Source: Pseudoxanthomonas sp. PXM03 (GTDB lineage Bacteria > Pseudomonadota > Gammaproteobacteria > Xanthomonadales > Xanthomonadaceae). Taken from it: a stretch of DNA of 64,000 bases. Each line of letters opens with the position of its first letter. The first letter of the stretch is position 1. The stretch lies in contig NZ_JACVAU010000001.1 in assembly GCF_014852005.1 (NCBI RefSeq), positions 1,448,001 to 1,512,000 on the forward strand, read 5' to 3'. Below the pieces are notes generated by a model, which saw only the letters and a program-made list of their open reading frames with translations, made no database searches and was not told the origin of the DNA. This document shows, in pieces, positions 54,468 through 56,741 of this stretch. Made by a program: the position numbers and the translations under genes.

Positions 54468-54502
54468 GAGGATCCAACTTCTGACCTCGTCATTGCGAAC
54501 GA
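54468..54502 (-). other. Displaced copy of part of tRNA-Ala (probable attachment-site remnant)
   Basis: These 35 bp match 56679-56713 inside tRNA-Ala(CGC) at 32 of 35 positions, and the last 20 (GACCTCGTCATTGCGAACGA) exactly. The copy covers the T-arm to the anticodon loop and no further. Such a direct repeat is what integration of an element into a tRNA gene leaves behind. The 211 bp from 54503 to 54713 contain no gene I can see. Confidence 0.75.
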
Positions 54503-54714
54503 TGCCTAGCCCATTGGGTCGCCTATGGTTAAGCCCTTTCGGATCATCAGGATGAGCGATCCTGTCCGGCTTTAAGTTGCCGGGAAGCCACCACAGGGCG
54601 GGCGGGGCGATTGAGGCGCAACAGGGGCAGCGGCACGGTGGGAACTGTCGCTCGCAGCCTACTCGGCAGTGATTTCAGTCCCGCTCTAGGACTTCTACCT
54701 TTGTTTCAGCACTA

Positions 54715-54939
54715 CTAGCGTCGGGTACGGCCTGCTCGGTCAGCACGATACATGCGAAGGAAAAGGGGGCCTGCAATCACCTTCGAAACTAGCAGGACGC
54801 CAAGTAGATTGATCCAGTACAGGTAGCTTGCTGGCACGGATAGAAGGCTCCCCAGCCACCTGCAGGCCAATACAAGTACAACCAACACCGGCAACAGCCT
54901 CAGCAGTAGGACAGTCAAGATTTCTTTGATGCTAGGCAT
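54715..54939 (-). CDS. Small two-helix membrane protein of the island
   Basis: I do not recognise it. The 74-residue product (MPSIKEILTVLL...) has two membrane helices: about 6-30 (EILTVLLLRLLPVLVVLVLA) and 40-60, then a basic tail ending AGRTRR. It overlaps the end of the HEPN-like gene by a few bases, so the two are translated together. An ATG seven codons upstream (54960) is another start. Small membrane proteins paired with a nuclease-like protein are common in abortive-infection loci, but no specific function can be assigned. Confidence 0.65.
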   Translation of the reverse strand: MPSIKEILTVLLLRLLPVLVVLVLACRWLGSLLSVPASYLYWINLLGVLLVSKVIAGPLFLRMYRADRAGRTRR

Positions 54940-56281
54940 GGTCCGATCGCGTCCTTTCATGAATTAATGACCCTAGCTGCTCTATGAAAGGAATCGCTTG
55001 CCCGGGGTCATGGAGTGCATTCACTGGCATCACCATTCCGGTAACGCCCCAGACCTTATTGTCGGCTTCATCAATGATCCATGCACACCCGTTTCCCCAA
55101 AGTAAGCTGTCGAACTGAAAGAAGGATGCGATCTCATCGAGCTGGGCGCGGGACAGACTGCTGTCCAGCTTCCGAAACATCGGCGGCCCGATTGGGTGAA
55201 CATCACGGCGCTCAAGGTCAAAGCGGAACTTGATTGCTCCGGCATGCTCTTTGCCGACAAACGTTAGGTCGATTGCCGTAGCACCAACGGCCCAGTCCTC
55301 CACTTCCATTCCTCGAATGGCTAGTGTGTCGCCCATCCGTTTCACGACCAGCGTTGCTGGCGATGGGAGCATGAGCTGGGCAGCAGGGATAGGACGATCC
55401 TGATATCTGATCCAAGCGAGGACTTGACCGTCCTGTGCGTCGCAAAAGCCTTGAATCCGATTCTGCTGAACTTTTGGGTGCGTCCCAGAATGCGGAGCGT
55501 CGACGAACTCCTCGATTGCGAGCCGCGCCAATTCCTTGTACACGACACGATCTAACGAAAACCGATATCGCTCCTGGTCTACATCCGGATCAACCGCATC
55601 GTCCTCTTTCGCGTGGGCAACCGCGTGACGCCCTTGCTTGCGAAGGTAGTCGCCGATTGATTCCCTAGTCGACGTCTCAATGGCGTGAATACGAGCCATG
55701 GCTTCTGGCGTCACGAGTTTGGGCACAGCAGATTTGAACCAAGCGCCACGCACGTCGCCATTAACGAAGTTTTCGATCACCTTGAAGAAGCTAAGTGCGG
55801 CGTAGAAGTCATTGCTTGATGACAAGCCCTCACGGAATAGAGCAAGACCCCGCAAGGCTCGCGGATCAGAAACACGCTCGATCGCCTGAAGGCCAATGTC
55901 CATGTAGCTGGACATGGCCGTAAATCTTCTGATTCGGCTATGGACGGGCCTAGTGGGGCTGTACGTGAAGTCAGTGATCGCCAGTGACGATTGCTCCGTC
56001 CACGCGATCACAGACGCGAACCGGGAAATCGCCGTTCTAGCCTCTTCGGGCGAGGACAGTGAATTCGTGCGCATGTTCACGGCGATGCCCGCTGCCAGAT
56101 CATCTGTTGCAGGCAGCAGGAGGAATTCAGACCCCTGAAACCACATCACTTGAAACTGATTCGGCCAAGACGCGCGCGTGTTGATATGGGCCGACATCCA
56201 AGGCCCTGTTTCGCTGCAACAATCCAGAGCACGTTGTGTGGTCTGGCTGAAATATGGCCACAAGGGATCCGATTGGTCCAT
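54932..56281 (-). CDS. HEPN-like domain protein (MauJ/Apea-like), unknown function
   Basis: A 449-residue protein with no close family I can name with confidence. The middle (about 150-265) is helical and carries RHAVAH (R218, H223), the R-x4-H motif of HEPN RNase domains. This, with FFKVIENFVNGDVRGAWFKSAVPKL before it, recalls proteins labelled MauJ and the Apea-type HEPN group. The N-terminal part and the C-terminal ~170 residues (beta-rich, two Asp/Glu-rich segments) are unlike anything I know. HEPN proteins often cut RNA in phage defence or toxin systems. Start ATG 56281 has GAGGGG just upstream. Lower GC than the flanks. Confidence 0.75.
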   Translation of the reverse strand: MDQSDPLWPYFSQTTQRALDCCSETGPWMSAHINTRASWPNQFQVMWFQGSEFLLLPATDDLAAGIAVNMRTNSLSSPEEARTAISRFASVIAWTEQSSLAITDFTYSPTRPVHSRIRRFTAMSSYMDIGLQAIERVSDPRALRGLALFREGLSSSNDFYAALSFFKVIENFVNGDVRGAWFKSAVPKLVTPEAMARIHAIETSTRESIGDYLRKQGRHAVAHAKEDDAVDPDVDQERYRFSLDRVVYKELARLAIEEFVDAPHSGTHPKVQQNRIQGFCDAQDGQVLAWIRYQDRPIPAAQLMLPSPATLVVKRMGDTLAIRGMEVEDWAVGATAIDLTFVGKEHAGAIKFRFDLERRDVHPIGPPMFRKLDSSLSRAQLDEIASFFQFDSLLWGNGCAWIIDEADNKVWGVTGMVMPVNALHDPGQAIPFIEQLGSLIHERTRSDHA

Positions 56282-56635
56282 GGCCGCCCCTCGTCCACTT
56301 AGTTTTCCTGATGCAGAAGCTACCAGACCCGGAGGTATCAAGCCCCTGTATGGAGTTAGTTCGGAAGGTGGTCTACTTCGAGCCAGTCGGATTGTGGTTC
56401 CAGCATCGGTTCTAGGACTTCCATTGCTGTGGGCGAGGATCATCCGCATTTGGCTTGGCGTCCGACCCTGTCACTACGAGTGCGGAGGCGACCGATTCGT
56501 TTCGCGAAGAAGTCCCGAGGGTGATTCGTTTGTAAGTTCCGTATAAGTCGGGCTGCCAGGAACAGACCACGCATCCGTGCCTCGACGACGGCTATCTGCG
56601 TATGGGCGCTGGATTTCGCAAGTGCCTGAAACAGA
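56282..56635. other. Non-coding part of the island
   Basis: 354 bp between the start of the HEPN-like gene and the tRNA terminator. It is AT-richer than the chromosome and should hold the promoter of the two island genes on the minus strand. I see no convincing gene, repeat or RNA in it. Confidence 0.4.
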
Positions 56636-56657
56636 AAGCCCCGCCGGAGCGGGGCTT
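56636..56657 (-). terminator. Terminator of tRNA-Ala(CGC)
   Basis: AAGCCCCGC / GCGGGGCTT, a perfect 9-bp stem with loop CGGA, is followed by TTTC on the minus strand, 8 bases past the tRNA 3' end. Confidence 0.8.
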
Positions 56658-56665
56658 CTTGAAAG

Positions 56666-56741
56666 TGGTGGAGCCAGGGAGGATCGAACTCCCGACCTCG
56701 TCATTGCGAACGACGCGCTCTCCCAGCTGAGCTATGGCCCC
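56666..56741 (-). tRNA. tRNA-Ala (CGC)
   Basis: A complete 76-nt cloverleaf on the minus strand with encoded CCA. The acceptor is GGGGCCA paired to TGGCTCC (one G-T); the anticodon loop TTCGCAA gives anticodon CGC; the T-loop is GTTCGATCC. It reads GCG codons, abundant here. Its 3' half is duplicated at 54468-54502. Confidence 0.95.

Follow-up and report, generated by a model that had tools for sequence, protein, structure and literature searches.

What is the role of a 449-residue protein encoded between an intact tRNA-Ala(CGC) gene and an eroded copy of the 3' half of that gene? The question is raised by the 64,000-nucleotide stretch of Pseudoxanthomonas sp. PXM03 presented above (hereafter the window), in which the protein, a member of the Pfam family MauJ, is the larger of two gene products of a small island. 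By its motif the protein is very likely a HEPN-type ribonuclease; it belongs to a misnamed family, of which it represents an apparently undescribed branch, and is carried as cargo by a decayed tRNA island. Its whole mechanism would be that of a single-gene abortive-infection system acting like ApeA and used in phage defence, a reading that we put at a probability of roughly 0.6. If it is true, a Pfam family labelled as methylamine utilisation would consist of anti-phage ribonucleases, the genomes carrying it would be misannotated, and catalogues of defence systems would be missing the family.

The MauJ-family protein and its R-x4-H motif

The gene and its predicted active site occupy the following positions:

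54932..56281, minus strand: 449-aa MauJ-family protein with an N-terminal domain, a HEPN-like middle domain (residues ~146-257) and a C-terminal domain (Pfam PF17419, E=3.1e-22)
55613..55630, minus strand: codons of RHAVAH (R218, H223), the predicted ribonuclease site (conservation in aligned homologues)

The reading frame starts at the ATG at 56281 and is intact throughout, with RHAVAH at residues 218-223. The match to PF17419 spans residues 146-257, that is, the middle domain only, and scores 80.1 bits against a curated cut-off of 28; the same protein has no NCBIfam match and no PADLOC family up to an E-value of 10. In an alignment of 26 MauJ proteins, R218 is found in 26, H223 in 25, R150 in 24, A220 in 22 and E170 in 20, the R and the H being the best-kept columns. 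This alignment leaves out the interrupted domain matches of G677 (locus L074) and G704 (L080), the partial L104 and the duplicates L090 and L100-L102; it keeps L079, which lacks the H and is absent from the 25-row alignment (A9). L105 is 96% identical to L085. Among the 25 divergent domain segments, no column other than R and H is invariant.

Proteins of the HEPN superfamily are characterised by a four-helix bundle that acts as a dimer and by ribonuclease activity independent of metal. At the sequence level, PMC3710099 lists as traits of HEPN domains an Rx4-6H motif, a polar residue (mostly N, D or H) after the R and an acidic residue in helix 2, typically within Ex3[KR]. The window protein displays the first of them as RHAVAH and the second as the H that follows its R. 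An earlier note on this DNA, made from the letters alone, had described a 449-residue protein with RHAVAH, which is confirmed, and had called it HEPN-like, a description that appears well supported at motif level by the conservation of R-x4-H, together with a weak ApeA link of another MauJ subgroup.

For the mode of action, we propose that the MauJ middle domain is a HEPN ribonuclease that would fold as a dimer and be held inactive. Sensing of a phage product by the flanking N- or C-terminal domain would release it, and the released HEPN domain would then cut host RNA (tRNA or mRNA), by which growth and phage production would stop.

Departures from the conserved pattern occur elsewhere in the family. 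L079:3325-4296 encodes a MauJ-family protein whose R-x4-H has lost the H (aligned as RAAVSF) and which may be inactive, and a stop codon breaks the MauJ domain match at L074 (~8559-9726) and at L080 (~565-909), which are probably decaying copies.

The earlier note had also spoken of a candidate undescribed module. The protein belongs to a named Pfam family, on which no paper was found. Searches of the literature for MauJ with HEPN, defense, methylamine, PF17419 and the product name returned, among the papers listed, no account of the family, which does not prove its absence elsewhere. MauJ is not mentioned in the passages of PMC13414232 consulted, and a term search found no word starting with 'mau' in PMC3710099.

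Possible relatives of the middle domain among HEPN proteins

A profile of five MauJ members (A11, the RNSLMHG subgroup) matches ApeA (PDB 9hxm, Pfam PF18739) with E=0.001, the next match lying at 0.4; three RNSLMHG members give the same structure at E 0.009, and the 25-row MauJ domain profile gives it at E 0.005, with R-x4-H placed opposite RNTIVH in a second segment whose own score falls short of significance. When the window subgroup is aligned to A11 by hhalign, the match has E 0.0016 (probability 16%) and is co-linear, with R-x4-H opposite R-x4-H; for full-length profiles it has E 0.017 (probability 2.6%). Because the window protein's own subgroup has no ApeA match, its link to ApeA runs through the shared Pfam domain (3e-22 for the window protein, 7.5e-11 for L085) and this modest profile-profile match.

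In layout, the window protein resembles ApeA in having an N-terminal domain followed by an R-x4-H HEPN domain; unlike ApeA, it carries a further C-terminal domain of ~190 residues, it is not matched by PF18739 (HEPN_Apea), and the profile of its own subgroup does not reach ApeA. Activation of ApeA by deoxydinucleotides is reported in the title of a preprint cited in PMC13405049. In an hmmsearch of 719 called proteins with the 25-row profile, the MauJ members stand far ahead, and the best unrelated protein has an E-value of 0.0022.

A second connection leads to Dazbog. L086 (L086:3416-4669), a distant MauJ member, matches DzbB (PADLOC PDLC03836) over its HEPN-like region at E=2.9e-6, a hint that a HEPN-like domain is common to MauJ and DzbB. 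DzbB is part of a system of two genes; at L086, the pair of genes upstream of the MauJ protein has no match to any PADLOC family at E<=0.01. The window protein matches neither the DzbB nor the DzbA models. Another member, L077, weakly matches a reverse-transcriptase-associated HEPN model (E 0.054); in all, among 10 MauJ proteins compared with PADLOC-DB 2.0.0, one was clearly recognised and this one more weakly.

The island at tRNA-Ala(CGC) and the history of its site

The borders of the island consist of the following features, those without a strand being hairpins and arms:

56666..56741, minus strand: intact tRNA-Ala(CGC), the integration target (ARAGORN)
54454..54505, minus strand: displaced, decayed tRNA-Ala 3' half, an attachment-site remnant (blastn, 83% over 52 bp, E 6e-8)
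~54428..54447: left-border hairpin of the ancestral tRNA-side type, GGCCAGGCATGCGCCTGGCC (the same type precedes the single tRNA in empty sites G274, G301, G311 and G264)
~56636..56657: new hairpin/terminator brought with the element, AAGCCCCGCCGGAGCGGGGCTT (type present in occupied sites G303, G294, G299, G313, G284 and G206)
54511..54641: left arm of the ancestral element, common to congener G303 (local alignment score 57, equalled in 0/300 shuffles, top shuffle 45)
56479..56621: right arm of the ancestral element, common to G303 and G294 (scores 51 and 60, 0/300 shuffles each, top shuffles 45 and 57)

The remnant corresponds to the tRNA 3' half, spanning the CCA end through to the region of the anticodon, and in its core (54468-54502) 3/35 positions differ from the intact tRNA when counted in the alignment. 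The interval between the two copies (54508-56624, 2117 bp) has a guanine-plus-cytosine (GC) content of 55.9%, a value reached by 0/1150 segments of equal size elsewhere in the 64 kb, where the minimum is 63.3%; third-position GC is 61% in both island genes, against 85% in the TonB receptor gene and 89% in the gene beside the tRNA. The tRNA piece 2.2 kb from the intact gene (32/35 identical), the hairpin accompanying each copy and the AT-richer DNA between them, all pointed out in the earlier note, are borne out by alignment, blastn and composition. Its statement that no integrase is present agrees with a search in which the integrase of congener G117 found no match in the island interval at E<=10.

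The island flanks were sought in 38 genus genomes, including that of the window (G000), and the 15 closest sites, those with the tRNA-side flank matched at E=0, were compared. Seven of them (G274, G304, G242, G301, G311, G264 and G253) are empty by their coordinates, with receptor, hairpin and one tRNA; four (G274, G301, G311 and G264) were also read as sequence and show the ancestral hairpin type, the new type being absent from these four. The other eight are occupied by inserts of 0.3-26 kb with mostly different cargo: 2.2 kb in G000, ~0.3 kb of similar sequence in G284 and G313, ~0.85 kb in G299, ~1.8 kb in G206, ~5 kb in G294, ~13 kb in G117 and ~26 kb in G303. At the G000 junctions, the ancestral hairpin and the eroded tRNA 3' half lie on the left, and the intact tRNA and the new hairpin type on the right. 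That the mini-island which the earlier note placed at the tRNA is mobile is thereby supported, as the empty site with one tRNA for which it had recommended searching related strains was found, together with shared arms and, in congeners, integrase remnants.

In G117 the protein adjoining the tRNA was read by eye as an intact tyrosine integrase, and the remnants, N-terminal pieces of such a protein, occupy the corresponding position in G294 (3e-12) and G303 (3e-11). Since the arms are alike (for G294, a top shuffle of 57 against a score of 60), one ancestral insertion is likely to be common to G000, G303 and G294, with cargo that differs among them; the right arm of G000 compared with the left arm of G117 is not significant (80/300 shuffles). 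According to this reconstruction, in which the order of events at the site is inferred, an old integrase-borne element would have inserted into the tRNA-Ala(CGC) 3' half in an ancestor shared by several congeners, and its cargo would since have been swapped and its integrase lost. Islands of this kind, borne by an integrase at tRNA genes, are familiar elements. The present one shares with them the insertion into the tRNA 3' half, the replacement 3' end and the displaced remnant, and differs in that the integrase is gone and the cargo is reduced to one or two genes. If this is right, the site also offers, within one genus, a tRNA-Ala integration point at which cargo turnover can be traced between close species.

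The G117 island itself (L047:2398-15112, ~13 kb) bears the integrase and is flanked by a 72-base exact tRNA duplicate, and its cargo includes a match to PDC-S31, a PADLOC candidate (6e-36), as well as an AAA ATPase of mad3-like type (1e-21).

As an alternative, the MauJ gene may be a passenger without present function, or its HEPN-like domain may have no ribonuclease activity. The lost integrase and eroded tRNA piece of the decaying island are consistent with it, as are the interrupted domain matches of two other family members and a promoter scan that found no sigma-70-like promoter, though shuffled sequences average only 1.3. Against it stand the intact frame of 449 codons with its R-x4-H kept and a plausible ribosome site, GAGGGG, ahead of the ATG, and we consider it improbable.

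Mobility, neighbours and the small membrane protein

MauJ genes are rare and scattered. The Pfam domain is present in 8/369 class, 6/397 order and 4/398 phylum genomes (overlapping sets, G000 being in each), compared with 2/185 for HEPN_Apea and 7/143 for Abi_C in class genomes. A direct search with the 449-aa protein found relatives in 4 of the 296 further genomes sampled from the family, among them a doubtful one (G053, E 7e-4, with two internal stops) that was not used; the gene is absent from 17 other congeners listed. Plasmid copies number 3 in 72,556 records (Agrobacterium, Gemmobacter and Xanthomonas vasicola).

The family name implies methylamine utilisation, and a true accessory role in that pathway would be the literal interpretation. 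It draws on the Pfam and NCBI product name only. The sporadic and mobile occurrence of MauJ argues against it, as do the absence of other mau genes from those listed around the three plasmid copies, in a gene table that is incomplete, and the failure to find the methylamine dehydrogenase heavy chain (PF06433) in G000 in a search that had no positive control. Such a role is very improbable.

Other copies lie in viral contigs. In L089/L090 the MauJ gene is ~4 kb from a P2-like portal gene, in L088 it lies amid P2-like capsid and tail genes, in L103 ~2 kb from a Mu-like transposase and in L106 ~3 kb from a terminase, with L105 and L107 as further viral contigs. In relatives of P2, the end next to the portal gene is a hotspot for defence genes. 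A phage record collection searched with the window protein and its L089 and L084 homologues yielded nothing, and no relative was obtained when viral contigs were searched with the first MauJ alignment and with A8. From the positions in phages, plasmids and islands and from the DzbB match of one member, a defence role of the MauJ protein is plausible.

The same positions, on plasmids and close to P2-like, Mu-like or terminase genes of viral contigs, would be expected if MauJ served its carrier prophage, plasmid or island by blocking rival elements, protection of the host being a by-product. Sequence cannot tell such competition between mobile elements from defence. It is at odds with loci such as L073, L075, L076 and L083, which have housekeeping neighbours and, among the genes listed, no phage genes recognised by eye, and we regard it as distinctly unlikely.

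The neighbourhoods of 23 MauJ genes were compared with PADLOC families at E<=1e-10, using 64 hand-picked genes of the 133 within 3 kb and 64 random genes of 151 outer ones. The LmuB-like gene near L084 was left out, the outer genes, coming from the same loci, are an imperfect control, and the counts are of families and not of distinct proteins.

Several results weigh against abortive infection by an ApeA-like HEPN ribonuclease. No PADLOC excess was seen near MauJ, where the inner genes match 10 families, with one member each, and the outer genes 37 (25 listed, one member each). Since this test gave no excess, striking single neighbours are to be taken as anecdotes: an LmuB-like gene (4e-39) by L084, PDC-S59 (2e-65) by L081, a DpdJ/MkoA-like gene by L107, a PLD-type gene by L053 and a RES-domain gene by L045. 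At the tRNA-Ala site, PADLOC matches were found for only two of 10 cargo proteins scanned (seven from G117 and one each from G206, G299 and G303), both in G117, and no MauJ gene was found in the inserts of the seven other occupied sites (hmmsearch of called genes; tblastn best E 0.35). As regards the HEPN traits, N, D or H follows the R in only 17/26 homologues, so that a polar residue at this position is not general in the MauJ family, and the window protein lacks the Ex3[KR] signature, its E170 (kept in 20/26) standing in ENFVN, with neither K nor R in fourth position. Among solved structures, no HEPN protein was matched by the window-subgroup profiles A3 and A10, by subgroup A8 or by L106 alone; apart from MauJ, the HEPN models of Pfam matched neither the window protein nor any of five further HEPN-like segments; hhalign of MauJ profiles with two HEPN_Apea proteins gave no match; and ApeA and Abi_C proteins are not among the best 70 rows of the hmmsearch with the 25-row profile.

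Tentatively, and at somewhat less than even odds, MauJ may be, under a wrong name, a mobile clade of HEPN ribonucleases of the ApeA type whose flanking sensor domains are interchangeable, distributed over plasmids, islands at tRNA genes and prophages, P2-like and Mu-like ones included. Within it, the window protein would be a stand-alone abortive-infection enzyme whose sensor type, an N- plus a C-terminal domain, is not yet described, and it could be tied to the membrane through its small partner.

This partner is the second gene of the island:

54715..54960, minus strand: small membrane protein of 81 aa, or 74 aa if started at the inner ATG (54939), with two hydrophobic stretches (no family above curated cut-off, no PADLOC hit up to E 10)

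Read from the ATG at 54939, the gene overlaps that of the 449-aa protein by 8 bases, stop codon included, and 81 aa result from the ATG at 54960. A tblastn search of 104 other loci, the remaining MauJ loci retrieved among them, detected no relative (best E 0.059, in L078, broken by stops), and none on plasmids up to E 1. Within the genus, a genome search recovered two identical 86-aa proteins (32%, E 2e-4), unseen by tblastn, in G063 only (1/37 other genomes). A 97-aa two-transmembrane protein follows the MauJ gene of L084; it seems to belong to the next operon and shows no similarity to the small protein of the window. As no relative of the small protein was found at the other MauJ loci, the pair does not appear to be a conserved module. 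The overlap by a few bases and the two-helix membrane protein given in the earlier note are borne out, the former with the 74-aa start and the latter as two hydrophobic stretches, and the two-gene defence or toxin module finds no support; in all likelihood the small protein is a passenger or an accessory.

In a toxin-antitoxin (addiction) module, a HEPN toxin would be neutralised by the small membrane protein or another factor, and the pair would retain the island. HEPN toxins with antitoxins exist, the genes overlap by those 8 bases when the small one is read from its 74-aa start, and the island persists without an integrase. The lack of small-protein relatives in the 104 loci and on plasmids, and the occurrence of the G063 relatives in integrons without a MauJ neighbour, argue against such a pairing, which we hold to be unlikely.

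The G063 relatives (L108:1328-1588 and L109:1474-1734) are two-transmembrane cassettes in integron arrays with clear attC sites and no adjoining MauJ gene. An integron origin was considered for the small gene of the window and rejected, as no attC flanks it and the sole pattern match spans the tRNA remnant. A 213-aa protein encoded in the L108 array contains EHRNKRIAH and, by eye, looks HEPN-like. Downstream in the window, small genes on the same strand lie at 62038-62469 and 63508-63951, the last of which resembles, by eye, a phage or secretion-system tail-tube protein.

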